Part shown: positions 49,862 to 54,228 of the stretch, in pieces
How the letters are laid out: each line of letters opens with the position of its first letter
Position numbering within the stretch: position 1 is the first letter of the stretch
Assembly (NCBI GenBank): GCA_023954475.1
Contig: JAMLHW010000010.1
Location: forward strand, 1 to 64,000
Reading direction: 5' to 3'
Source of the DNA: Anaerolineae bacterium
Lineage (GTDB): Bacteria; Chloroflexota; Anaerolineae; Promineifilales; Promineifilaceae
Length of the DNA: 64,000 nt
The notes under the pieces: model-generated
What the model was told of the DNA's origin: nothing
Seen by the model: only the letters and a program-made list of their open reading frames with translations
The model's database searches: none
Made by a program: the position numbers and the translations under genes

Positions 49862-51010
49862 TCAGACTATGCCCAATTCGTGCTTTAGGACCAGCGCCGA
49901 ACTGCCGAGCAAAACGATGTCCTGTCCCAGCGTCGAATAATCGATGTTTGTTTCGTAGACCATCCCGGGCAGGGTACGCCGTCGGGCTTCATCGCGAACA
50001 GCTTCGAGAAAGATTCGGCCGAAATGTTCCACACGCCCCGAAATGACAATGTGGTGAATATTGAATGCAGCTATCAAATTGGCAACCGCAACACCCAGGC
50101 GCTCGCCCGCACGGGTGACAACCATCGTCACAGCAGAATCACCAGCATGCAGCGCCGCAACCATTTCCGGCCACGTCAAAGCCGCATTACCCGTGCGCGC
50201 TGCCGCATCCGCCAACAATGAACGCGTACCGACAAACGTTTCCAGGCAACCGTGATTGCCGCAGGTACAGAGAGCGCCGTCCTCTGCCACAACCACATGC
50301 CCAATTTCGCCTGCTCCGAAACCATCACCATACAAAGGTTGACCGTCAAGGACAATGCCCGCACCGATGCCCTGGCCGATTTTGATCACGATCAAGTTAG
50401 TGCTGGGACGCACTTCGCCAAACGTGTACTCAGCCAAACCGGCGATATGGCTGTCATTGATAATGTGAACAGGTATTTCAAACCGATTTTCCAACTGGTG
50501 CTTCAACGGCAAATTGTACCAACCCAAATTTACAGCTTGCCGCACGACGCCATTTTGCGGATTGATCAAGCCGGGCGTACCAATGCCAATGCCCAGCAGC
50601 GGCTGCGTTGCAGCGGCGATCAGTCTGTCTACCAGCGTGTAGACAAGCTGCAGAGCATCTGTTCCCATGCGCCCTGCAACCGGCAGTTCCAACCGGTTGC
50701 TGAATTCGCCGCGCAAATTGGTCAACACGCCGCGAAAATTGTGGCTGCTCAAATCGACACAGACCGATTGCCATGCGTCCGCGTTAAATTCCAGCATGGT
50801 CGGCGGCTTCCCCCCGGCCGATGGCCCAAGACCCACTTCAAAAACCAATTGTTCATCGAGCAAATCACGCACGATGCTCGATACAGTCGGCCGAGTCAGG
50901 TGTGTGGCGCGCGCAATGTCGGCACGACTGATGTGACCATAATCGTAGATGGTTCTGAGTACCAGTTGGGTATTGTGGTTTTTTGTGTGGTGACGTGTTG
51001 CTTTGCGCAT
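49862..51010 (-). CDS. ROK-family transcriptional regulator (NagC/XylR-like)
   Basis: The 382-residue protein has an N-terminal winged helix (LVLRTIYDYGHISRADIARATHLTRPTVSSIVRDLL) followed by a ROK sugar-binding domain (IGIGTPGLINPQNGVV, IKIGQGIGAGIVLDGQPLYGDGFGAGEIGHVVV, CTCGNHGCLETFVG). It lacks a kinase-type DxGxT loop at the domain start, as expected for a regulator. It should repress the GlcNAc operon that it heads and respond to an amino sugar or its phosphate. An operator-like dyad lies 13 bp upstream. Confidence 0.9.
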   Translation of the reverse strand: MRKATRHHTKNHNTQLVLRTIYDYGHISRADIARATHLTRPTVSSIVRDLLDEQLVFEVGLGPSAGGKPPTMLEFNADAWQSVCVDLSSHNFRGVLTNLRGEFSNRLELPVAGRMGTDALQLVYTLVDRLIAAATQPLLGIGIGTPGLINPQNGVVRQAVNLGWYNLPLKHQLENRFEIPVHIINDSHIAGLAEYTFGEVRPSTNLIVIKIGQGIGAGIVLDGQPLYGDGFGAGEIGHVVVAEDGALCTCGNHGCLETFVGTRSLLADAAARTGNAALTWPEMVAALHAGDSAVTMVVTRAGERLGVAVANLIAAFNIHHIVISGRVEHFGRIFLEAVRDEARRRTLPGMVYETNIDYSTLGQDIVLLGSSALVLKHELGIV

Positions 51011-51022
51011 GACGGTAGCTTA

Positions 51023-51045
51023 CTTAGTTATCTTAACTTACTAAG
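51023..51045. promoter_or_regulatory. ROK-type operator CTTAGT-N11-ACTAAG
   Basis: CTTAGT (51023-51028) and ACTAAG (51040-51045) form an inverted repeat 13 bp upstream of the ROK regulator start. The TTAGT...ACTAA arms match the known style of Bacillus XylR operators. A possible -10 TAAGCT lies 6 bp before the ATG, inside the left arm side, so binding here would block the operon promoter. Confidence 0.6.
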
Positions 51046-51117
51046 ATCGTACAGGGTTCCCTGCATCCTGTCAATGAAATGCAAGAGAAACTAAAGCGGA
51101 GAGGCACAAATCGCGGA

Positions 51118-51158
51118 AAAACGACAAAGCGGCTTCGATATAACTCGAAACCGCTTTG
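51118..51158 (-). terminator. Rho-independent terminator of the small RNA
   Basis: CAAAGCGG and CCGCTTTG arms, extended by TTCGA/TCGAA, form a 13-bp stem with one mismatch (51125-51158). On the minus strand it is followed by TCGTTTTTCC. It lies just after the tRNA-like 3' end. Confidence 0.85.
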
Positions 51159-51169
51159 CTATCTAAGTC

Positions 51170-51322
51170 CGCAGGACGGGATTCGAACCCTTTCACAATA
51201 ACGATTAAGGAACACTCACGGTTCTGATGCTAACAACACTGTGGTTGGAAAGACTAACTCTTACTTCGAAAGCTTAAACCTGCTTCGCATCAACGAACTG
51301 TACCAACAGAAGTGTCCTGCGT
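51170..51322 (-). ncRNA. Structured small RNA with tRNA-like 3' end (unassigned)
   Basis: The region has its own consensus promoter and terminator and no coding frame. The predicted RNA start coincides with CGCAGGAC, which pairs with GTCCTGCG 152 nt downstream. Just before that 3' strand is GGGTTCGAATCCC, the T-arm consensus of tRNAs. Inside, CTGTTGGTACAG resembles a D-arm, and TTGATGC near the 5' side can pair with GCATCAG further down; GAAC/GTTC form another hairpin. A normal anticodon arm cannot be built, no CCA follows, and the length is twice a tRNA but under half a tmRNA. Candidates are a tRNA-like regulatory RNA or a disrupted tRNA gene. Confidence 0.6.
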
Positions 51323-51328
51323 AACAAC

Positions 51329-51357
51329 ATCATAAAACGTTTTCTGACCAATGTCAA
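51329..51357 (-). promoter_or_regulatory. Consensus promoter TTGACA-N17-TATGAT for the small RNA
   Basis: On the minus strand a perfect -35 TTGACA (51352-51357) and TATGAT (51329-51334) are 17 bp apart, the best promoter match in the window. It overlaps the stop codon of the last baseplate-operon gene and points at the small RNA, with start predicted near 51322. Confidence 0.85.
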
Positions 51358-54155
51358 GCATAATTTTCCGATTGGCGTACACGCGCACGCTGATCGGCAA
51401 TGGGGATATTGGTGTTGTCGTTGGTAATGGACACTGAAGCGACATTGTCCGCTATCAGCCACTGGGGGCGTCGCGGATCACCTAGTGGATTGAGCGGATT
51501 GAAGCGCACGCCAGTATTGAAATCTGCGATATGATTGTGGCGCACGATCATGCGTTTACCCATGTAACCAAAGACGCGTATCCCTTCTATATGCAGCTCG
51601 CTGGTACTGCCGGTGCGCTGTAACGTTATTTTGTTGTCGTCGATGAGCACACTGTCGCCATTGCCGACAAAGATGCCATGCCGCTCGCCGGTTGCCGTGG
51701 AGGGCAGTGTGCAGTTGACTGTGTTGCCGCGCACCAGAATGGTAACTGCCCTGTCGGGCGTGCCGCGCTGGTTTTCTCTGTGGCTGAGACCGACGTGGAT
51801 GCCTTGAATCACATCTTGGATCGTGTTATCGAAGATGCGCACATCGGTCGCATTGCTGCCACCGATGACGATGCCCTGACCGGCAACACTGCCTTGATCG
51901 GTGCGTGCGGCAGCGAGCCAACGGCGTACAGCCGGGATTGACGTTGCGCCGCTTGTGTTCAGGAGAATGCTGTCGGCGGCGCGATACAGCGCCTGCTGGG
52001 CTGTGTCGCCACGGCGAATCGTGTCAGAAACAAGTGTTTGCCACAGATCGGCATTTGCCAGGGCAGGGTGGGTGGTGAAAAAGATTGATTCTCGGCCGAT
52101 TGTGATACCGACGACATTGCCCCGCGTTCGGGAAGCGCCGAGGCGTGCCGGCGCAGCGTTCGTGATACGCGCATTGGCAACGAGCAAGTTGCGCAGCTTG
52201 CCGCGTGCAACTTTGTCAGTTACCAGCGTGTCAATTGTCGCCGTGCGCGGTGACTGGACGACGCGCATGACGTTGTCACTGACATGCGAACGCCACACAT
52301 TGGTCAGCAGGATACCCGTTTGCAGGTTGCCGACATGCAAATCACAGTGGCGAATGCGAACGGTGCTTTGGACGACCGGATCGACGGCATTGTTGACGCG
52401 AATACAAGTCGCGGCGCGAGAAGTGCCAGGCGCACCGATGACCTGCACATCATCGACAGTGACATCACCGCAATCGCTGAAGGTGAGAACTCCGTTGAGG
52501 GTGTTGCCGATGACGAGTTTGCCGATGCGGCTTTCGGCCGAAAGGTGTTCAATCGTCACACTGGCACACTTCTCAAAGCGAATCGCCGCCTCCTGCTCGG
52601 CAGCAACCAGTTTTGTACCCCACCCGCTACCCGACAACACCAGATGTCCTTTCGCGACGGCCTGCACGGTTTCGGCCGATTCATACTCTCCGACCGCAAA
52701 GCAGATCAGCGCGTCACCACCATCCGGAATGGCGTCAAACACAGCCTGCAAGTCGGCGCCGGGCGCAACATGGAATGTACACCGACCGCCGCCATTGGTG
52801 CGACACAAAATATCCAGCGCTTCCTGCACCGTCGTTGCACCTGCCAGTTCCGGCTGACAGTTGGCATTTTCATAACTGATATCTTCAGCCTTCAGATCGG
52901 ACAACGGCGGGAACAGACAGCGGCAATCACCGTCGTCGACGAGCTGCCACCCTGCTGCGGTGCGATCGACCAATGCTAACGGACAATAATAATGTTCGAT
53001 GCCCATGCGCGGCTGCGCCAGCGGACCAACGGCGTCACGCGGCCACAACACATCTCCCAGATTGGTCCGCGCCGGAATCAGCCAGTAATCACCTGTCTGG
53101 AAATGGGCACCTGCTGCCGGGCCAAACAAAATTTCGACGCCGTCTTCGAGGCGCAAATACCCCTGATTATCGGCGGCAATTTCGACCGTCTGTGGGCCGT
53201 CGCTGTCCCAGCGGCGCACCTTGCGCGTCTCTGCAAAGTTGTTGATGTCAATGACTGCGCCATTGGGATCGATTGTCAATGTTTTATCGTTGACATCAAT
53301 GAGTTTGACGACAACTCCCGGCTCACCGCGCAGCTCACGGTCGTCGTCAGTTAACTCAACCCAATCGTCAATACGGAAGCTGAGATTATCATCGCGTCCT
53401 TGATTGGCAATGATGATGTTATCACCGTCCTGATCAACCCACTCAGCAACGACACTGCCGTTTTCGCGGCTGTAGAGGAATGTCGCCGTACCCAATCCGC
53501 CGGCATCGAGAATTTGTACGCGGTAGAGCTGGTTCTCCAATCGGCGATACCCGGCCGAAGCGGGTACGATGCATGGCTCTGTTGAACCGGTTTCCGGTTG
53601 GGCGCGGGCAGTCAGATTGCCGGTTGAGGCTAGGGGCAAATTCGGCCGAAAACCGGCAGCAAAATCAGCACAGGTCGCGCCGTCATTAACCTGCTGCAAC
53701 CTGACCTGCGTCACGACCTGTACACGCGTTGCCGTGTCCGGGCCGCCAAGTGCCGGTTCCCGAATGTCGCCGTCTTCCAGCGCTGTAATGTGCCGTTCCC
53801 ATACATCGAGATAGGCGAGATAGCGTCCGGACGCACCGGGCAATATCGCACCGGGAAAATCAGGCTGACCAGTGAACAAATGACTGACGTCGTTTTCGCA
53901 CAGAATGCCGGCGACATAATATCGGCCGATGCCAATGCGCAGATTGGCGCCGTCAATCGTGATAGCATAGCCGGCGTCGTTTTCCGGCGCACAGCAACCA
54001 CCGATCACGTCATACCGCGTTACGCGGTCGCGATACGTCGCAATCTCAAATGCCTCGTTCCAATCGGCATCGAGCTGAACGCGGCCCTGCTGCTGTAAAA
54101 CCCGACTGTAATGCTTGTTTTTATCAAATGTGTTGCGGGTGAAATCGCCTTGCAT
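51354..54155 (-). CDS. Baseplate-operon protein with DUF6519-like N-terminus and right-handed beta-helix
   Basis: The 933-residue protein starts MQGDFTRNTFDKNKHYSRVL, QQQGRVQLDADWNEAFEI, a signature of a family (I recall it as DUF6519) found in contractile-tail-like clusters. From ~470 to ~900 it carries parallel beta-helix repeats (NTLNGVLTFSDCGDVTVDDVQVIG, SHVSDNVMRVV, NATDVRIFDNTIQDVIQGIHV, RMIVRHNHIADFNTGVRF), as in tail spikes. A likely role is an outer spike or fibre that contacts the target surface, but this is inference. GGAG sets the start at 54155; 95 bp separate it from the tail-I gene. Its stop overlaps the small-RNA promoter. Confidence 0.8.
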   Translation of the reverse strand: MQGDFTRNTFDKNKHYSRVLQQQGRVQLDADWNEAFEIATYRDRVTRYDVIGGCCAPENDAGYAITIDGANLRIGIGRYYVAGILCENDVSHLFTGQPDFPGAILPGASGRYLAYLDVWERHITALEDGDIREPALGGPDTATRVQVVTQVRLQQVNDGATCADFAAGFRPNLPLASTGNLTARAQPETGSTEPCIVPASAGYRRLENQLYRVQILDAGGLGTATFLYSRENGSVVAEWVDQDGDNIIIANQGRDDNLSFRIDDWVELTDDDRELRGEPGVVVKLIDVNDKTLTIDPNGAVIDINNFAETRKVRRWDSDGPQTVEIAADNQGYLRLEDGVEILFGPAAGAHFQTGDYWLIPARTNLGDVLWPRDAVGPLAQPRMGIEHYYCPLALVDRTAAGWQLVDDGDCRCLFPPLSDLKAEDISYENANCQPELAGATTVQEALDILCRTNGGGRCTFHVAPGADLQAVFDAIPDGGDALICFAVGEYESAETVQAVAKGHLVLSGSGWGTKLVAAEQEAAIRFEKCASVTIEHLSAESRIGKLVIGNTLNGVLTFSDCGDVTVDDVQVIGAPGTSRAATCIRVNNAVDPVVQSTVRIRHCDLHVGNLQTGILLTNVWRSHVSDNVMRVVQSPRTATIDTLVTDKVARGKLRNLLVANARITNAAPARLGASRTRGNVVGITIGRESIFFTTHPALANADLWQTLVSDTIRRGDTAQQALYRAADSILLNTSGATSIPAVRRWLAAARTDQGSVAGQGIVIGGSNATDVRIFDNTIQDVIQGIHVGLSHRENQRGTPDRAVTILVRGNTVNCTLPSTATGERHGIFVGNGDSVLIDDNKITLQRTGSTSELHIEGIRVFGYMGKRMIVRHNHIADFNTGVRFNPLNPLGDPRRPQWLIADNVASVSITNDNTNIPIADQRARVRQSENYA

Positions 54156-54176
54156 GCGACTACTCCATTGATTGTA

Positions 54177-54228
54177 AGTTGGTTGAATGGTTGGCTCGTC
54201 AGCGTTGAATCGGCCAACCAACTAACAA
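54177..54228. other. Inverted repeat in the gap between the tail-I and beta-helix genes
   Basis: AGTTGGTT...GGTTGGC (54177-54196) and GGCCAACCAACT (54217-54228) can pair in the intercistronic gap. The pairing is interrupted. It may be a processing or attenuation hairpin. Confidence 0.4.

Follow-up and report, generated by a model that had tools for sequence, protein, structure and literature searches.

The pseudo-tRNA tRNA-Other of Bacillus cereus is a tRNA-like RNA outside the translation set, with a narrow distribution and a possible regulatory role (PMC3399842). It carries a Trp anticodon and is transcribed as part of a longer RNA for which no terminator is predicted (PMC3399842). Allo-tRNAs and selC-like tRNAs combine a longer acceptor with a shorter T-stem (8/4 or 9/3) and keep both the anticodon arm and the normal tRNA length (PMC7609411). 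In tmRNA (RF00023), tRNA-like ends close over a large insert. The small non-coding RNA YrlA (RF02553) contains a module of tRNA-like T-arm and D-arm, which is permuted, and its termini form the Ro60-binding stem. The motif bound by Ro60 is GNCGAAN0-1G.

Here we compare with these systems a short element found in a 64,000-nt stretch of bacterial DNA (the window, whose numbering is used unless a contig or locus is named). Judging from its sequence, the element is a real and probably transcribed RNA gene with tRNA-like ends, possibly for a tRNA-like regulatory RNA.

Results

The element lies on the minus strand between a baseplate operon, which comprises genes for a phage-tail-like particle, and the gene of a ROK regulator. 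The DUF6519 gene (51354-54221, 955 aa) is the last of the operon, neighbouring Phage_Mu_Gp48-like and Baseplate_J genes, and its stop codon is overlapped by the -35 box of the RNA promoter. This sigma-70-type promoter, TTGACA-N17-TATGAT (51329..51357, minus strand), had been called perfect in an earlier note made from the DNA; the two boxes and their spacing are indeed there, but with 11 of 12 consensus positions the word is strictly too strong. It is the single match to TTGACA-N16-18-TATRAT in the window, where 0.01 are expected from shuffles, and it is of the same type as the promoters of tRNA genes in this genome. Transcription is predicted to start at about 51322, after six bases past the -10 box. 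Among the genome's tRNA genes, 32 have a recognisable promoter, and in these the 5′ end follows the -10 box by 10-41 nt, compared with 6 nt here. Unlike them, the RNA thus seems to be leaderless and to begin at its acceptor. Sequence and fold together predict an RNA of about 155 nt (51168..51322, minus strand), spanning the start A up to the discriminator position, or 205 nt including the terminator. The latter (51114..51159, minus strand) consists of a strong 15-bp hairpin (51159-51124) and a T-run to about 51117, with the tail CGTTTTTCCG. Thus, the self-contained gene for a tRNA-like RNA that the earlier note had proposed, complete with promoter, start-site stem, T-arm and a terminator with a T-run, has all its parts in place, and these are jointly improbable by chance.

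The ROK regulator downstream has a promoter of its own (51074-51046). That the element might serve the ROK operon as a riboswitch or leader was considered and rejected, since ROK orthologues lack such an RNA upstream and the ROK gene of the window uses its own promoter. In this region (window 51010-51074) the ROK promoter is followed by a palindrome-like operator, CTTAGTAAGTTAAGATAACTAAGTAAG, and similar sequences lie upstream of most ROK orthologues of the family (L074-L093).

From 5′ to 3′, the parts of the RNA are A-CGCAGGAC, CTGTTGGTACAG, a 107-nt middle, GGGTTCGAATCCC and GTCCTGCG-G-A, ending at 51168. The closing, acceptor-like stem pairs CGCAGGAC (51314..51321, minus strand) with GTCCTGCG (51170..51177, minus strand; then GA, 51169-51168) in eight perfect pairs, with a pairing probability of at least 0.98 at every pair. 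The predicted start is one base ahead of CGCAGGAC; its coincidence with the 5′ strand of the stem had been noticed before. The T-arm GGGTTCGAATCCC (51178..51190, minus strand), with a TTCRANY loop, directly precedes the 3′ strand of the stem, again as described earlier. Just inside the closing stem, a D-loop-like hairpin, CTGTTGGTACAG (51298..51309, minus strand; pairing probability about 0.5), places the tRNA-like D-loop GTTGGTA in D-loop position. The match to a tRNA is not exact: the T-stem has three clean base pairs, or five with a mismatch, an A.G lies beyond the closing stem, and the D-stem is imperfect. Two geometries can be drawn from the sequence, an acceptor of 8 bp with a T-stem of 3 bp, or 7 + 5 with A.G mismatches; in the latter the D-arm is ACT..AGT, and GG and A21 are in place. 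Strict tRNA numbering gives the mismatches A1.G72, A50.G64 and T13.C22. Either predicted geometry puts the acceptor, the GG of the D-loop and the T-loop in tRNA order, with the anticodon domain replaced.

How much of this likeness could arise by chance differs among its parts. Across the 5.1-Mb genome, the T-arm 11-mer GGTTCGANTCC occurs 58 times; not counting the element, about eight of these sites are outside clear tRNA and tmRNA genes. One of the eight is a tRNA-Sec gene, and none of the seven remaining chance sites (0/7) has a nearby perfect complement of more than 6 bp. The T-arm motif alone is not significant against chance. When the T-arm and the promoter are taken as given, 0.04% of dinucleotide shuffles (4/10,000) have an 8-bp complement where transcription starts, and 0.45% have one at any position within the 138 nt. 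Both the promoter and the start-site placement of the stem are thus far above chance. The tRNA-Sec gene lies at C21:333287-333384 (L144 488-585), and because of it the genome probably uses selenocysteine.

The middle (107 nt, 51191..51297, minus strand) stands in place of the anticodon arm and variable region and has no recognisable motif; in particular, it has neither an Rfam match nor a Y-RNA motif. It is no more stable than its shuffles (z +0.7), and the fold of the whole RNA likewise has no advantage over shuffled sequences (z -0.34 and -0.53), while two real tRNAs, from tRNA loci of this genome used as controls, do have one (z -2.5 and -1.7). Antisense targets of the middle among the window genes were none better than those of shuffled inserts.

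ARAGORN and Rfam covariance-model searches gave no match to the element, in line with the earlier view that neither a tRNA cloverleaf nor a tmRNA can be made from it. A tRNA-Gly-like fold reaches 84% of the ARAGORN threshold, but so do 17% of shuffled sequences in which the T-arm is preserved. The earlier note had also suggested a tRNA with a large insertion. This fails as a spliceable tRNA, because none of 4,148 single deletions yields a default ARAGORN tRNA (low-threshold matches equal those of shuffles) and the bases flanking the insert, those that follow the D-loop and those that precede the T-arm, form no proper anticodon stem. No RF00023 match and no recognised tag reading frame were found, and the genome encodes a full, normal tmRNA. 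Furthermore, the 3′ end of the element recurs in none of the tRNAs found in this genome, and the element is therefore not a local attachment-site copy; the proposed attachment-site remnant finds no support. By these searches, the element classes as neither a tRNA, a spliceable tRNA, a tmRNA or a YrlA, nor as any Rfam family.

No homologue was found by DNA search in 198 relatives or by covariance model in 396 genomes of the class, and no relative of the element was found in 72,556 plasmid or 50,697 phage records. In the set of genomes used, this one is the sole member of its genus. The single-sequence model R1 gave one weak match in the 396 genomes (24.7 bits; E 0.013 per genome, with about five such matches expected), which we rejected as chance since it lacks a T-arm and apparently lies in coding sequence. 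DNA matches in relatives were stretches of 16-43 bases in T-arms of tRNA genes or in apparently coding DNA. At the 3′ end, 20-22 nt (GGGTTCGAATCCCGTCCTGCGG) recur without change in two other RNAs, a phage-type tRNA and a tRNA-like RNA of phages, where they form the T-arm and acceptor; what is common to the phages reads as T-arm and acceptor sequence of the tRNA type. Scanning genomes for the ROK protein or for the 22 nt of the 3′ end gave no match. By these searches the RNA gene is an orphan of this genome and seems unique to this organism.

Two observations concern viral genomes. Enterococcus phage EFDG1 (KP339049.1; L162 1977-2077) carries an unannotated tRNA-like RNA with permuted tRNA halves inside a phage tRNA cluster, as do L163, L164 and 16 more Enterococcus phage records. 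It has a Y-RNA-like two-part stem (TATCCA/TGGATA and GGACAGTG/CACTGTCC) and a weak YrlA match (28.4 bits, E 2e-4), in view of which a first interpretation, a permuted tRNA enclosing a group I intron, was abandoned. On a viral contig (L103 10304-10387; IMG/VR UViG_3300019880_000009), a tRNA gene with the anticodon UUA would read the UAA stop.

The same genome encodes Ro60 (TROVE, PF05731; C1:144373-145263, E 3.4e-39), on another contig than the element; only 1 of 19 relatives shares this gene. Its immediate neighbour is a tRNA array with about 20 genes (locus L137, C1:143500-149500). Beside the Ro60 gene, between and inside the tRNA array, at least three RNAs on the minus strand (L137 1966-1862, 2212-2130 and 2389-2320) can be read as Y RNAs from their sequence. 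They are unmatched by the Rfam Y RNA families and have pairing ends (GACGGGC/GCCCGTC, GTGGGC/GCCCAC and GCGGGC/GCCCGC) and a common GGGCCG(G/A)...TTA. In a genome of the same family, a putative Y RNA beside the TROVE gene (L188 2652-2576, minus strand) contains GCCGAAG, which fits the Ro60 motif, and gives a sub-threshold match (32.9 bits) to RF01656, a nematode RNA family that we take to be stem-bulge RNA. Stem-bulge RNAs have been described as Y RNA homologues (PMC4726728).

Moreover, the two loci hold three tRNA-Y RNA chimeras on their minus strands, in which a tRNA acceptor and T-arm, mostly with the D-arm too, surround a 50-90-nt insert with GGGCCG..GGTTA. L188 3411-3282 scores 52.6 bits with the tRNA model over 130 nt, L137 4170-4049 scores 39.7 bits over 122 nt, and L137 ~2127-2012 has a 7-bp acceptor and a T-arm without a D-arm. 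For the first two, the insert is more similar to some of the Y RNAs than shuffled sequences are (P at most 0.007, two pairings each); for the third, the similarity is only weak. By sequence, the chimeras look like unpermuted counterparts of YrlA. Because this architecture is found at its Ro60 locus, the genome builds RNAs with tRNA ends around an insert, as in the window RNA. The window RNA itself is not called a Y RNA, because the Y-RNA motif is absent: it contains neither GNCGAAN0-1G nor the GGGCCG motif of the clade. It also has no match to RF02553 or to the clade's Y RNA model (a weak test, since the same model misses the chimeras), and its middle has no sequence similarity to any Y RNA or chimera.

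Discussion

The promoter, the stem at the start site, the T-arm and the terminator are all present, and the element is absent from the other genomes searched. The reading that we tentatively favour is an expressed pseudo-tRNA or tRNA-clamped small RNA, whose ends would be held by a tRNA-type acceptor and T-arm. We infer that the small RNA is transcribed independently and that its acceptor/T-arm, folded as an elbow, and the D-loop-like hairpin would clamp the 5′ and 3′ ends, the anticodon half being replaced. Such a clamp could be bound by tRNA-handling proteins, with tRNase Z trimming after A155, CCA addition and possibly the action of modification enzymes or Ro60, and this recognition would protect the RNA ends. 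The loosely structured middle would carry the specific function, for example base pairing or protein binding. Against this reading count the lack of homologues in the genomes searched, the unremarkable stability of the fold, the three-pair T-stem, imperfect D-stem and A.G beyond the closing stem, and a middle that shows neither a motif nor an antisense target in the window better than those of shuffled inserts.

Nearly as likely, if doubtful, is a decayed tRNA gene, perhaps derived from a phage, whose middle was replaced or rearranged and which retains the acceptor, D-loop and T-arm with its old promoter and terminator; it would be functionless, whether transcribed or not. The three mismatches under strict numbering, the lack of stable structure in the middle, the lack of conservation and the array of divergent tRNA genes in this genome are consistent with decay, but the promoter and terminator are intact, the eight perfect closing pairs reach beyond a tRNA acceptor, no single deletion restores a tRNA, and the RNA is leaderless at its acceptor, unlike the genome's tRNA genes. 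The tRNA likeness itself could be fortuitous in an ordinary orphan small RNA, given the seven or so T-arm 11-mers found by chance outside tRNA genes, the frequency of an 8-bp complement anywhere in the RNA and a fold no better than shuffles. We consider this unlikely, however, in view of the rarity of such a stem at the start site, the position of GTTGGTA and the exact junction of T-arm and stem.

Ro60 is encoded in the genome, and its locus holds chimeras of the same architecture, which would suit a Ro60-associated RNA that has diverged from them; the missing Ro60 and GGGCCG motifs, the failure of the Y model, the dissimilar middle and the different contig make this improbable. Even less credible is a tRNA interrupted by a removable intron, or else a reduced tmRNA. 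Acceptor, D-loop and T-arm do flank a large insert, yet the flanks give no anticodon stem, no spliced form scores and the insert is too short for a group I intron, while RF00023 does not match and a full tmRNA exists in the genome.

The tRNA-clamped small RNA, if expressed, would be a compact case of a tRNA end-structure clamping an unrelated RNA, and the genome that encodes it also encloses Y-RNA-like inserts between tRNA ends. It bears on whether, in these bacteria, small RNAs are stabilised more generally by a scaffold of tRNA ends. As a speculation to which we attach little confidence, bacteria with Ro60 and tRNA arrays might build a wider class of tRNA-clamped chimeras with an unpermuted acceptor/T-arm and interchangeable inserts. 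The window RNA would then be a member with a non-Y insert, through which the tRNA-processing or the Ro60 pathway would receive a new cargo.

Among the known systems, the window RNA has its tRNA-like form and narrow distribution in common with tRNA-Other, and it may likewise stand outside the translation set and have a regulatory role; it differs in lacking an anticodon arm and in having a 107-nt middle and its own promoter and terminator. Its 8/3 combination of acceptor and T-stem recalls the allo-tRNAs and selC-like tRNAs, although it retains neither their anticodon arm nor their length. With YrlA it has in common a T-arm and D-arm module in a small RNA and a genome that encodes Ro60; its termini, however, pair as a stem of the acceptor type, and it lacks the Ro60 motif. 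It resembles tmRNA in its tRNA-like ends closing over a large insert, but has no recognised tag reading frame or covariance-model match, and the genome has a normal tmRNA besides. The insert of the window RNA lacks the GGGCCG...GGTTA of the tRNA-Y RNA chimeras, but as in these chimeras, tRNA acceptor/T-arm ends enclose a large insert.
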